Shown here: positions 1 through 5,821 of the stretch, piece after piece | Position numbering within the stretch: position 1 is the first letter of the stretch | How the letters are laid out: every line of letters begins with the position of its first letter | Position numbers and translations under genes: made by a program | The notes under the pieces: generated by a model | What the model was told of the DNA's origin: nothing | Database searches by the model: none | The model's input: the letters and a program-made list of their open reading frames with translations, nothing else | Source: Acidobacteriota bacterium | GTDB taxonomy: Bacteria > Acidobacteriota > Aminicenantia > Aminicenantales > Saccharicenantaceae | Direction: 5' to 3' | Assembly: GCA_039683095.1 (NCBI GenBank) | Contig: JBDKSB010000006.1 | Span: 1 to 64,000 of the forward strand | Length of the DNA: 64,000 bases

Positions 1-529
1 CCGCGGACTGGACGCGCTTGATCCGGGCGCTCGACGACGAGGCCTTCCGCTTGGCCGGCGGCGGCGGGGGCGGGGGGGGCGGCGGCGGCGGCGCCAGGAA
101 CGCGCTGTAGACCTCGACCGTGGGCAGCGCCCCGGTCTTGAGAAGGGGCAGGACGATGAGCAGGATGAGCATCGCGGCGTGCAGCACGACGGAGATCGGC
201 AGCACGAAGGCCCGCTCCCTGGCCTGGCTCATCGGCCGATAGAAGGAATCCTGGAACATCTTGGCCTCCGCGGTACGTGATGCGGGGGCTCCGGCTTGGG
301 CGCGGACGATCCCGGCCCGGACGCGCCCGGGGAAGGAATCCCAGTAGCCCGGTTCCGGCGGTCCCGGCGGAGACATCCCGGCCCTGGTCGAGAGCTGACG
401 GAGGAACTCGAGGTCCCGCCGGCAGGCCGGGCATTTCTTGAGATGCTTCTCCACCCGGGGCCGGTCGGCCGCACGGAGCTCGCCGTCGGCCAGGGCCCCG
501 ATGAGTTCCTGGAGTTTGCGGTGTCTCAT
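1..529 (-). CDS. Zinc-finger anti-sigma domain continuous with a TonB-type N-terminus (partial)
   Basis: This is an open frame of 176 codons that runs off the left edge, so the C-terminus is missing. Residues 1-45 look like a zf-HC2 anti-sigma zinc finger with ligands H29, C33 and C36. After a linker, residues 107-130 form one transmembrane helix, then 13 prolines in a row (147-159) and a basic stretch, the layout of a TonB periplasmic arm. The ATG at 529 lies one base after the TGA of the ECF sigma gene, so translation is probably coupled. An internal ATG at 259 has GGAGG five bases upstream and begins MFQD, exactly like the stand-alone TonB gene starting at 5737. A separate TonB may therefore be made from inside this frame. 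I see no stop codon between the two parts. A sigma-binding cytoplasmic finger joined to an energy-transducing arm is inference. Confidence 0.75.
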   Translation of the reverse strand, partial: MRHRKLQELIGALADGELRAADRPRVEKHLKKCPACRRDLEFLRQLSTRAGMSPPGPPEPGYWDSFPGRVRAGIVRAQAGAPASRTAEAKMFQDSFYRPMSQARERAFVLPISVVLHAAMLILLIVLPLLKTGALPTVEVYSAFLAPPPPPPPPPPPPAKRKASSSSARIKRVQSA

Positions 530-530
530 C

Positions 531-1133
531 TCAAGCTCCCCTTCCCAGGGAATCCGCCAGAAGGTCCTTGAGCTTCTGGCGGGCCCGGTTGAGCCGCGAC
601 ATGACGGTGCCGAGCGGCAGGTCGAGCGTCCGCGAGATCTCCTCGTAGCTCAGGCTCTCGTGGAACCTCAGGACGAAGACGCTTTTCTGGTCGGCGGGAA
701 GGGATTCCACCGCCAGGTCGAGCCTGGCTTGGAACTCGGCCTGCTCCAGCCGTTCCTCGGGGTCGTCGCCCCGGGCCGCCGCCGGCGCGCGCCGGTCGCC
801 GAGCGGGCCGTCCTCGATCGGCCTCTCCCGGCCCCGGGCCTTGAGGTAGTTCAGCCCGGAGTTGACGGCGATCTTCCTGAGCCAGGGGTAAAGCGGCCAT
901 TGAGCGTCGAACCGGCCCAGCGCCAGATAGGCCTTGATGAACGTTTCCTGGGCCAGGTCGTCGGCCGACTGGTGCGCCCCGGTCAGGCGCCGGCACAGGC
1001 CATAGATCCTGTGCTGGTACTTCCGGACCAGGTCCTCGAAGGCGTCCATGTCTCCCTGCTGGGCTTTCCTGACGAGGGCGGCATCCTCCGGATGCTCGTT
1101 CGGTCTCGCCGGAGCTCCCACAGGTTCATACAT
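531..1133 (-). CDS. ECF-family RNA polymerase sigma factor
   Basis: The 200-residue protein has the two-domain sigma-70 ECF layout. Region 2 covers roughly residues 35-100 and contains a DDLAQETFIKAY core recognition helix. Region 4 covers roughly 135-195 and contains the helix-turn-helix with SYEEISRTLDLPLGTVMSRL. ECF factors bind core RNA polymerase and direct it to stress or envelope-response promoters, and are usually held inactive by an adjacent membrane anti-sigma factor. Here the next gene downstream supplies a zinc-finger domain of that type, one base away, so the pair is very likely a sigma/anti-sigma unit. The ATG at 1133 gives a normal-length product. No promoter motif was recognised upstream. 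Confidence 0.92.
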   Translation of the reverse strand: MYEPVGAPARPNEHPEDAALVRKAQQGDMDAFEDLVRKYQHRIYGLCRRLTGAHQSADDLAQETFIKAYLALGRFDAQWPLYPWLRKIAVNSGLNYLKARGRERPIEDGPLGDRRAPAAARGDDPEERLEQAEFQARLDLAVESLPADQKSVFVLRFHESLSYEEISRTLDLPLGTVMSRLNRARQKLKDLLADSLGRGA

Positions 1134-1197
1134 CGCGCCGCGGCCCTTATTCCCCTGACATGATACTCTTTTTTTCGGCTTCCGCGCAGGGAGATCG

Positions 1198-1735: not shown

Positions 1736-2524
1736 TCAGGCGTAGCTGTGGAGACCGGTCAGGAGATAATTGACCCCGAAGTAGGTGAACAGCGCGGCCA
1801 GGAAGCCGACGATGGCGATGACGGCCGACCTCTTCCCCTTCCAGCCCATGACGATCCGGGTGTGGAGGTAGAGCGCGAACACGAGCCAGGTGATCAGGCT
1901 CCACACTTCCTTGGGGTCCCAGGCCCAGTAGCGGCCCCAGGCCCGGTAGGCCCAGATCATGCCGAAGATGAGCCCGCCGAGGGTGAAGAGGGGGAAGCCC
2001 ACGGCCACGGCCCGGTAGGCCAGGGCGTCGAAGCGCTCTTTCTTGTCCGGGGCCGGGGTTGCGATGTAGAGGATGCTGGCGACGAAGGCCACGGCGAAGA
2101 AGGCCTCTCCGAGCAGGGTCACGGAGACGTGGAGCCAGAGCCAGTAGCTCTGGAGGGCGGGGACGAGCGGCGCCGCCTCCTTGGGCATGAGCGGCGACGA
2201 GGCCAGGGCGACCAGGCCGACGACGATCAGCATCAGGCAGGGGCCGAGCCGGGGCGCCCGCGAGGGCCGGGCGAAGACGAGCAGGGCCAGGACGATGGCC
2301 CAGGACAGGAACGACAGCGACTCGTACATGTTCGTGAACGGCGCGTGGCCGCTGGCCGCGGTCCGGACGGCCAGCGCCGCGGCATGGAAGAGGAAGCCGC
2401 CGAGGGCCAGGACGTAGGCCGCCCTGGATCCTTTGTCCCGCTTGACGAGGAGCGTGACGAAGTAGATCACGAGCGAAACGGCGTACAGGGCGAAGGCGAT
2501 GGTGAAAAGCGTCGACTCGGTCAT
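1736..2524 (-). CDS. ccsA: Cytochrome c biogenesis protein, CcsA/ResC family (often annotated CcsB)
   Basis: This is a 262-residue integral membrane protein with about eight hydrophobic segments. It carries the tryptophan-rich heme-handling motif WGRYWAWD at residues 196-203 and conserved histidines at H47, H132 and H221. In System II cytochrome c maturation this family works with ResB/CcsB to move heme across the membrane and present it to apocytochromes. Its ATG at 2524 overlaps the resB stop codon (ATGA), so the two subunits are translationally coupled. The length is that of the short, unfused CcsA/ResC type. The downstream gene is a tetraheme cytochrome, a plausible substrate. Confidence 0.92.
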   Translation of the reverse strand: MTESTLFTIAFALYAVSLVIYFVTLLVKRDKGSRAAYVLALGGFLFHAAALAVRTAASGHAPFTNMYESLSFLSWAIVLALLVFARPSRAPRLGPCLMLIVVGLVALASSPLMPKEAAPLVPALQSYWLWLHVSVTLLGEAFFAVAFVASILYIATPAPDKKERFDALAYRAVAVGFPLFTLGGLIFGMIWAYRAWGRYWAWDPKEVWSLITWLVFALYLHTRIVMGWKGKRSAVIAIVGFLAALFTYFGVNYLLTGLHSYA

Positions 2525-3858
2525 TCGGGCCTCCTGATCGCTCCGAACAGGGCGTCGAACTCGGCCTGGAACGGATCCCGGCTCTTGTCCGCCTGGCCGC
2601 CGGCGGCCAGCTCGACCCGTCCCTGGGCCTCTTCGAGGACGACCCTGATCTCGCGGGGCGGCCAGTAGAAGGCCAGGAAGAACCCGGCCGTGACCAGGGC
2701 GCAGCCGAGCCAGATGAGGCCCACGCCGGGGTCCTTGGCCGCCTCGAGAACGGAATAGGGCGCGGCCGCATAGTCTTTCAGGACGAGCGCGATCCGGGCC
2801 GCGGGCCCGTGCCCGAAGTCCGGGTACTTGGCGAAGATCCAGCCGGAAAAGACCTTTTCTTCCCCTTTCCAGGCTTCGGCCAGCGCGGCGGGGTTGTTCG
2901 GCGCCTCGGACCGGCTCCGGACCTGGTTCCCCTCGCCGATGACGAAGTCGGGCACGAACCGGCGGACCAGGATCCGGGTGACGTCCTGATCGTTGATCGC
3001 GGCCGGCTCGCCGACGCCGAGGGCCACGGCCCGGGCGAAGGCCGGGTCGCCGGGCTTATGGATCTCGAGGCCCAGGCGCGCGGCGTCCCAGTTCAGGCCG
3101 TAGGCCGACTGATAGAAAGAATAGCCCTTGTAGCGGAGCGGCTCGTTGACCTTGACGATCCGGGTGAGGACGGCCGCGCCGCCCTCGACCACGGTCACCG
3201 TGCTCTTCCAGGCCTTGACCCCGCCCCGGGGATAGTACTCCGTTTCGAACTTATCCAGGCGCACCTGGAAGGAGGCCCGGGGAACGCCGGAGGTCTGGCC
3301 CTCCCGAAGCGCCAGGTCGGACCGGCGGCCGCCGAGACCGCTGGCCAGCCCCCCGGCCAGGACGACGAGCAATCCAAGGTGGACGACGTCCGAACCGAAC
3401 CAGCCCAGGCGTTTCTTCCGGGCCAGGACGACGACCTTCCCGTCCCGGGCGGATTCGTCCAGGACGTAGCGTCGGGCCCGTAGAGCGGCGGCGACCGCGG
3501 CCCGGGCCTCGGGGAGCGGCCCCGGCAGCCGGAACCTGACGCCCGGCCGCATGGCCGAGAGCGCCTTGGCGTCCATATCCCGGGCCGGGCCGAAAGCCCG
3601 CCGCCACTTGGGGCCGAGCCGGGTCAGGGTGCAGACGACGGTGTTCACGGCGAAGAAGAAAAGGAGGGCCAGGTACCACCACGATTGATAGAGGCCGGTC
3701 AGACGGAGCCCGGTGAAGAGCCCCGCGAGGCCGCCGTAGCGGGCGGCGTATTCGGCCGCGCCCCGGTTCTGGGGGATGAGCGTGCCGACGATCGAGGCGG
3801 CCGTGATGACGATGATCAGGACGATGGCCAGCTTGACCGACGAGAAGAGCTTCTTCAT
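2521..3858 (-). CDS. resB: Cytochrome c biogenesis protein ResB/CcsB
   Basis: The 445-residue product starts with a transmembrane helix (MKKLFSSVKLAIVLIIV), has two further helices within the first half, a large extracytoplasmic region, and a final helix near residue 385. This is the ResB layout. It contains the typical segment on replacing apocytochrome-bound sites followed by KGYSFYQSAYG near the middle. ResB forms the System II cytochrome c synthase with CcsA/ResC. The frame opens upstream with a TTG at 3897, but the ATG at 3858 begins directly at the membrane helix and is preferred. The 3' end overlaps the ccsA start. A 91-base piece of this gene (3172-3262) recurs in inverted orientation at 3971-4061. 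Confidence 0.9.
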   Translation of the reverse strand: MKKLFSSVKLAIVLIIVITAASIVGTLIPQNRGAAEYAARYGGLAGLFTGLRLTGLYQSWWYLALLFFFAVNTVVCTLTRLGPKWRRAFGPARDMDAKALSAMRPGVRFRLPGPLPEARAAVAAALRARRYVLDESARDGKVVVLARKKRLGWFGSDVVHLGLLVVLAGGLASGLGGRRSDLALREGQTSGVPRASFQVRLDKFETEYYPRGGVKAWKSTVTVVEGGAAVLTRIVKVNEPLRYKGYSFYQSAYGLNWDAARLGLEIHKPGDPAFARAVALGVGEPAAINDQDVTRILVRRFVPDFVIGEGNQVRSRSEAPNNPAALAEAWKGEEKVFSGWIFAKYPDFGHGPAARIALVLKDYAAAPYSVLEAAKDPGVGLIWLGCALVTAGFFLAFYWPPREIRVVLEEAQGRVELAAGGQADKSRDPFQAEFDALFGAIRRPE

Positions 3859-3970
3859 GGCTCGAACAATCTTAGGTGATTTGGCCCCCGGGCGCAACCT
3901 TCGGGCGGGGGGGATGCCGTGACGTCCCCCTTGAGCGGATCGGCCCGGCGGACGTAGAATGGGGCGGGTC

Positions 3971-4061
3971 GCGCCTGGATAAATTAGAGACGGAGCGCTA
4001 TCCCCAGGGCGGGGTCAAGGCCTGGAAGAGCACGGTGACCGTGGTCGAGGGCGGCGCGGCC
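3971..4061 (+). pseudogene. Inverted fragment of resB
   Basis: These 91 bases match the reverse complement of 3172-3262 inside resB at 85 of 91 positions by eye, with the last 53 or so identical. The translated piece keeps the resB frame (for example GGVKAWKSTVTVVEGG), but there is no start and the frame soon ends, so it cannot be a working gene. It lies about 110 bases upstream of the resB start, in opposite orientation. It looks like a local duplication rather than a remnant of a second resB. Confidence 0.8.
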
Positions 4062-4089
4062 CCGGCGCTTCCCAGCGCGCGCCCTTTTT
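4049..4089 (+). terminator. Possible intrinsic terminator before thiF
   Basis: GGGCG-G-CGCG (4049-4058) can pair with CGCGCGCCC (4076-4084), with one bulged G, followed by TTTTT at 4085-4089. The left arm is made from the end of the resB-derived fragment, so the hairpin may be accidental. No plus-strand gene upstream needs it. Confidence 0.35.
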
Positions 4090-4097
4090 GCTAATCT

Positions 4098-5008: not shown

Positions 5009-5737
5009 TCACTTCTTGAGGACGAACCGCACGGTCACGGTGAAGGTCACCGGCCGGGGCCGGCCGTTGACCAGGAGCGGCTCGTAGACCCATTGCCGGA
5101 CCGCGTCGATGGCCGCCGCGTCGAGCAGCTGCACGGAGCGCAGGACGCGCACGGCCGTGACGCGCCCGTAGATGTCGGTCGTGGCCTCGAGGATGACGGT
5201 CCCTTCGATCCGGGCTTCCTGGGCGACTTTCGGATAGTCGGGCTCGATCCTGCGGACGAGCCTGGGCGGCTTGACGTCGCCGACCGCCAGCACCGGGGCC
5301 GCCGCGGGCGCGCCGACCAGCTGGAAGAGCTCCGCGCCCAGCAGGTTGGCCGGGACGCCCTCGCCGGCGCCGTAATCGACGCCGCCCTCGATGCCGTTCC
5401 CGGCGCCACCCTCTCCCAGGCTCTCCTCGACGATGCCTTCGGGGACGGCGACCGGGGCCAGCCGCCAGGTCTCCCCGGCGGGAACCGCCGCCCGCCGGAC
5501 CCTGACCTTGCCGCCGGGATTCCCGGCTTTGGCCTTCGGCGGCGGCAGCGGGGTCGCCGGCAGGGCCGGGGCCACGATGACGTTTTCCACGCCGATCTGC
5601 GGCGGCTTCACCGTTTTCATGAGAGGCAGGGCCACGAGCAGCGCCAGCGCGACCCCGTGGAGGAGCGCCGCCGCCGGCAGCGCGGCCGCCCGGGACCGCC
5701 AGTTCCTCTCCGGAACGAACATCGCGTCCTGGAACAT
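5009..5737 (-). CDS. TonB-family energy transducer
   Basis: The 242-residue protein has a short cytoplasmic start (MFQDAMF), one transmembrane helix at about residues 18-40, a proline/alanine-rich linker and a C-terminal TonB domain from about residue 160. The domain has the family pattern of EPDYPKVAQEARIEGTV, then GRV, LDAAAIDAVRQW and YEPLLVNGRP. TonB proteins pass proton-motive-force energy from ExbB/ExbD to outer-membrane receptors; no exbBD is in the window. The start has AAGGAGG seven bases upstream. The N-terminus and ribosome site closely match the internal start at 259 in the anti-sigma/TonB frame, so the two are paralogues. Palindromic repeats lie on both sides of this gene. Confidence 0.92.
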   Translation of the reverse strand: MFQDAMFVPERNWRSRAAALPAAALLHGVALALLVALPLMKTVKPPQIGVENVIVAPALPATPLPPPKAKAGNPGGKVRVRRAAVPAGETWRLAPVAVPEGIVEESLGEGGAGNGIEGGVDYGAGEGVPANLLGAELFQLVGAPAAAPVLAVGDVKPPRLVRRIEPDYPKVAQEARIEGTVILEATTDIYGRVTAVRVLRSVQLLDAAAIDAVRQWVYEPLLVNGRPRPVTFTVTVRFVLKK

Positions 5738-5821
5738 CTTCGCCTCCTTGCCGCGAATTCCCGGGAGCTTGTCGCTTCCATCCGGTATACAATCGACGGC
5801 GGCGTAAATTCCGATAATAGG

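Follow-up and report, generated by a model that had tools for sequence, protein, structure and literature searches.

A putative zinc-finger anti-sigma factor fused to TonB and encoded beside an ECF sigma gene in the Aminicenantales

Bacteria of the order Aminicenantales (the uncultured Candidatus Aminicenantes, phylum Acidobacteriota) carry, behind an ECF sigma factor gene, a single gene that joins a zinc-binding anti-sigma domain to TonB. On balance, and with some reserve, we believe that the two genes form a sigma/anti-sigma pair whose membrane-bound anti-sigma factor is TonB itself, that the resulting sensor feeds back on the supply of TonB, and that each fusion gene yields two products. 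The fusion, its conservation, the adjacent sigma gene, a common promoter-like element and a conserved internal start are all apparent at the level of DNA sequence.

The window analyzed here is a stretch of 64,000 nucleotides (C6:1-64000) of genome G000, an assembly of 3.29 Mb in 13 contigs. The sigma and fusion genes lie at its left end:

531-1121, minus strand: ECF sigma factor gene; probable GTG start at 1121 with an in-frame ATG upstream at 1133, Sigma70_r2 and r4_2 both above cut-off
2-529, minus strand: predicted anti-sigma/TonB fusion gene; open for 176 codons until the contig stops, full-length homologues of about 330 residues
419-514, minus strand: zf-HC2 zinc-binding anti-sigma domain (H29, C33, C36); PF13490, E 1.4e-9
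140-223, minus strand: TonB-type membrane helix with S-x3-H; helix at 103-130 in a relative's model
56-91, minus strand: twelve-proline arm, read from the frame

The fusion frame runs from the zf-HC2 domain (38.3 bits against a cut-off of 22.2) through about fifty more cytoplasmic residues, an MFQDSF motif and a membrane helix whose S-x3-H reads SVVLH, to twelve prolines. The first-pass annotation had placed H29, C33 and C36, a transmembrane helix and a 13-proline arm in one open frame; the frame and the residues stand, while the consecutive prolines number twelve. It had also put the fusion frame one base after the sigma gene, which is the gap that we measure from the sigma stop. The sigma start at 1133 implied by its coordinates probably needs correcting as well: because that ATG sits inside the conserved −10 element of the promoter, the start is probably the GTG at 1121, giving a protein of 196 instead of 200 residues. 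Sigma orthologues adjoining the fusion in other families share 45-56% identity.

Searches of 60 relatives and of 94 genomes of the order for zf-HC2/TonB fusions recovered 18 complete or near-complete proteins of about 330 residues, with further ones cut by contig ends or gaps; a complete copy lies within the 4.43-Mb single contig of G061. Both zf-HC2 and TonB_C exceeded the Pfam cut-off in all three relatives' fusions tested, and no stop interrupts the fusions from residue 45 to residue 91. Full proteins of this kind in relatives, which do not always encode the two parts separately, make the zinc finger that reads into TonB, as first described from the letters of the window, a real and conserved fusion. 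Invariant in ten full-length fusions are H29, C33, C36, S113, H117, the proline arm and a GGVEGGVEGGV linker; the fusion of G076 has lost one zinc cysteine. Nearly all fusions follow directly behind a sigma gene, most of them at a spacing of −4 to +11 bases; the fusion of G037 has no adjacent sigma. Outside the order, no full-length fusion was found among 396 genomes sampled across the phylum, with five candidates scored per genome, a depth that could overlook rare fusions or ones of independent origin elsewhere.

An AlphaFold2 model of a relative's fusion is weak overall (pLDDT 64, pTM 0.30), and its two folded ends were used for a fold search. One end returned the TonB fold and the other a zinc-binding anti-sigma fold, the latter with weak resemblance to RslA and RsiW (E 0.2-0.6). 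The genes exbB and exbD lie elsewhere in the G000 genome, which encodes at least 16 receptors. The TonB_C domain, the S-x3-H helix, the arm and the presence of exbB and exbD suggest that the fusion serves as a TonB protein, and its zinc-finger domain, the neighboring sigma gene and the promoter point to a role as anti-sigma factor.

The predicted promoter and the probable target of the sigma factor in the window are:

1126-1153, minus strand: predicted ECF promoter ahead of the operon of sigma and fusion, GGAATA-N15-TGTATGA; conserved across families
5009-5737, minus strand: separate tonB gene (TonB2), probable sigma target; TonB_C E 3.1e-19
5786-5812, minus strand: matching predicted ECF promoter before TonB2, GGAATT-N15-TGTATA; one change, same place in ten other genomes

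Just upstream of the sigma genes, GGGAATA-N14-16-TTGTAT is conserved across families, its second half reading TGTAT[GC]A in the window's genus; this genus form has a single match in the whole G000 genome, at 1126-1153. The element also stands ahead of TonB2-type tonB genes in eleven genomes, the window's included. Applied to 31 genomes, the strict pattern gave 37 matches, as against 5 for the reversed pattern. Further matches lie before two DUF4139 proteins, found in different bacterial families, and before secreted proteins, and looser patterns were rejected, as they gave matches with no plausible gene behind them. These data support a predicted autoregulated ECF system with TonB in its regulon. 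Two of the proteins behind this promoter, one a DUF4139 protein and the other secreted (L296 in G084 and L274 in G076), contain a GGVVGGVLGGV stretch that recurs in the TonB linker. The TonB2 gene of G013 has the ECF promoter (L245, G013:C2:543067-543093); neither fusion nor sigma orthologue was found in that genome, where another sigma may read the promoter. In families f2, f4 and f6 a sigma-54-like TGGCAY-N5-TTGC lies upstream of sigma (L066, L064, L065, L067, L088, L110, L091, L152) and may bring a second input to the operon, and TTTAC-GTAAA palindromes stand about 100 bases beyond it; neither the site nor the palindromes were seen in the window's genus.

These features suggest a model in which the cytoplasmic zinc-finger domain would hold sigma, while the same chain would span the inner membrane through its TonB-type helix, where it could work with ExbB and ExbD. 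The proline and Gly/Val arm would cross the periplasm to a TonB_C domain able to dock on outer-membrane receptors. Engaging or pulling the TonB end would then alter the anti-sigma end, or expose it to proteolysis, and release sigma, so that the energy of outer-membrane transport may alter sigma release. Freed sigma would transcribe its own operon and the separate tonB at 5009-5737, and the supply of TonB would track demand. A second ribosome site would yield a short TonB devoid of the anti-sigma part, one gene thus providing both a sensor and a plain transducer. We infer that sigma is bound, that TonB work is the signal and acts in this direction, and that both products are translated. Feedback of TonB demand on supply, with the short TonB as working partner, appears the most likely scheme. 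The fuller proposal, in which the transport motor is its own transcriptional gauge, TonB docking or pulling acting through the zinc-finger anti-sigma factor on ECF sigma release to adjust TonB supply, and the second start setting the ratio of sensing to non-sensing TonB, is a serious possibility that we advance tentatively.

Several points weigh against this model: the weak anti-sigma fold match, the cysteine loss in G076, the cases of G013 and G037, the sigma-54-like site, and the splitting of the junction between contigs in G000. The chief rival keeps the bifunctional protein and takes no signal from TonB. The anti-sigma end would answer something in the cytoplasm, such as zinc or redox state, the TonB half would be an anchor and an ordinary transducer produced along with it, and transport would not control sigma. 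Zinc-binding anti-sigma factors that respond to redox or metals are known in soluble and in membrane forms, and TonB function persists by itself after loss of the zinc finger, both of which fit this explanation; it accounts less readily for a fusion that has lasted across five or more families with arm and TonB_C intact, and for predicted sigma targets that include TonB itself. We regard it as rather unlikely, although the present data favour neither this explanation nor signaling by TonB over the other.

The short product proposed under signaling by TonB would begin at an internal ATG, residue 91 (M91) of the frame:

257-269 (ATG 257-259), minus strand: internal ribosome site and start, GGAGG-N5-ATG, GGAGGCCAAG-ATG; kept in 26 of 31 fusions

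As the first-pass annotation had noted for the ribosome site and ATG at 259, the internal GGAGGCCAAG-ATG matches the sequence at which the separate tonB begins at 5737, GGAGGCGAAG-ATG. GGAGG stands five bases before the residue-91 ATG in 19 of the 23 unique fusions first examined, and the addition of eight more brought the count to 26 of 31, across five families. The background is about 0.8%, with GGAGG at that distance in 24 of 3164 internal ATGs (666 genes); since a Fisher p-value for this comparison ignores relatedness, the argument rests on conservation in five families and on deletion alleles. Residues beside the site vary by family (AEV, KEA, KEV, REV, KED) while the nucleotides persist, and codon usage alone would supply the required G and GAG with a per-gene probability of about 0.07 to 0.5. 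Around codons 79-96, synonymous differences within the genus are 0.11-0.12, which is as low as the level of the true start, whereas 0.2-0.5 is common elsewhere. G037 has CTT where other fusions have the internal ATG.

In a tree built on the 51-residue stretch that runs from MF.DSF to the arm, a short alignment with modest support, fused genes stand apart from plain ones with the exception of the plain genes of G053, G054 and G056, which group with the fused. No close sigma orthologue was found in these three genomes, and the likely start of their tonB genes is the former internal ATG with its ribosome site. The zinc finger of G056 is gone; its start is less certain because the end of the cytoplasmic part is still there, in frame. 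Sequence upstream of the sigma gene in G084 aligns with G053 at 81-89%, and the alignment resumes at TAAGGAGGCTAAAATG, about 900 bases (promoter, sigma and zinc finger) being missing from G053. G054 and G058 show a similar but less extensive correspondence, having a sigma-54-like site and the ribosome-site region in common. Sigma and zinc finger are deleted in at least two lineages, leaving a gene whose likely start is the formerly internal ATG. The internal start is probably real, and the earlier suggestion of two proteins from one frame gains support from the conserved Shine-Dalgarno/ATG and from deletion alleles that start there. We consider it improbable that the full-length fusion is the sole product and the internal GGAGG and ATG unused leftovers of an older, separate tonB start. 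The identical TonB2 start is as expected had the fusion swallowed a tonB start, but leftovers should decay, and this site is kept in most fusions while flanking residues and length vary, shows low synonymous change, and is where the deletion alleles begin.

The fusion gene of the window runs into the end of its contig, at window base 1, and no TonB C-terminal domain for it lies inside the window:

1-127, no strand: collapsed-repeat edge, exact match to contig C3; 127 identical bases, divergence after

Contigs C6 and C3 are identical over their first 127 bases and diverge beyond, and the first 127 bases of C7 equal the reversed last 127 of C9, again with divergence beyond. From the way such assemblers work, exact and equal 127-bp overlaps at four contig ends point to a collapsed repeat, as a k=127 de Bruijn assembly leaves. 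C3 holds a plain tonB start behind secD-secF, and C7 and C9 both begin within the last 43 residues of TonB_C. Intact loci in same-genus genomes have two orders, either sigma, the fusion and then three gene families, or secD, secF, plain tonB, exbB and exbD; the three families that follow the fusion are also at the C9 end, alike in order and orientation. Taken together, the overlaps and the gene order in relatives indicate that C6 joins C9 and that C3 joins C7, so that what follows leftwards of the window is, in all likelihood, TonB_C, in a joined gene that spans separate contigs. A frame ending in the contig gap with no TonB_C is unlikely in view of the same overlaps and gene order. That mis-assembly at a repeat joined two genes is a very remote prospect: the gene indeed ends at a collapsed repeat common to another tonB, but bases 128-529, which hold the zinc finger and the membrane helix, are unique sequence, and the fusion recurs in many independent assemblies, intact copies of which, with that in the single contig of G061, rule out a chimera for the family.

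Assemblies break or gap inside tonB genes at window 1-127, at the ends of C3, C7 and C9, and in the fusions of G001, G002, G009, G012, G034, G041 and G062, because fused and plain copies share near-identical DNA; the identity of both edges in G000 explains the repeated breaks here. Over the arm and TonB_C, the similarity of fusion and plain tonB is about the same inside one genome as from one genome to another, and trees of this part mix fused and plain types by lineage, a concerted evolution that looks like recurrent gene conversion. Elsewhere in the genome, four consecutive TonB_C domains occupy one 859-residue open frame (G000:C9:107838-109208; L006, L007, L009, L010). The window also holds, at 3876-4094 on the plus strand, a short inverted copy of part of a ResB-like gene (LDKLETERYPQGGVKAWKSTVTVVEGGAA) just beside that gene (2521-3897, minus strand).

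The system resembles ECF sigma factors with zinc-binding anti-sigma factors (SigW-RsiW, SigL-RslA) in its adjacent sigma, H-x3-C-x2-C cytoplasmic domain, single membrane helix and autoregulatory promoter, and differs in having a whole TonB arm and TonB_C for its periplasmic part. With the TonB-ExbB-ExbD transducer it shares the S-x3-H helix, proline arm and TonB_C, to which the fusion adds about 90 N-terminal residues with the anti-sigma domain, a coupled sigma gene and an alternative internal start. MecR1/BlaR1-type extensions of TonB proteins also join a sensor-like N-terminus to the TonB C-terminal domain, but the sensor module is another one, with neither a zinc-finger anti-sigma domain nor an adjacent ECF sigma.

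In known cell-surface signaling, the anti-sigma factor is a protein of its own, which contacts the receptor's signaling domain and which proteolysis then removes (PMC9249621, PMC11637429). In the fusion, the anti-sigma part could itself sense the pull of the receptor. The FecI-FecR-FecA system likewise reaches across two membranes to connect TonB-dependent transport with an ECF sigma, but FecR, the receptor signaling domain and TonB are separate proteins there (PMC9249621, PMC11637429), whereas here anti-sigma factor and TonB are one chain. Pfam found no FecR-type domain in the fusions of three relatives, zf-HC2 and TonB_C alone being over cut-off, and no conserved TonB-dependent receptor lies beside the sigma-fusion operon; the single STN match of the G000 genome is on contig C13. 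Membership in the FecI/FecR group was rejected for want of a FecR domain and an adjacent STN receptor. IutY also fuses two parts of a transport-linked sigma circuit, joining sigma to anti-sigma (PMC9249621); here it is the anti-sigma factor that is joined to TonB. No description of an anti-sigma/TonB fusion was found in the literature searched, although a paper that reclassifies ECF sigma factors may mention one. The parts are known; their combination, the dual start and the predicted TonB regulon appear to be new.

With TonB tied to an ECF sigma through one natural chain, a simple promoter reporter could test whether cells gauge TonB activity directly and whether TonB is itself able to signal. 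The two-start design and the natural alleles that lack the anti-sigma half offer built-in controls. Such a link would add a new type of sensor to the anti-sigma factors, and, if TonB does sense, the work of transport might be read directly as gene expression.
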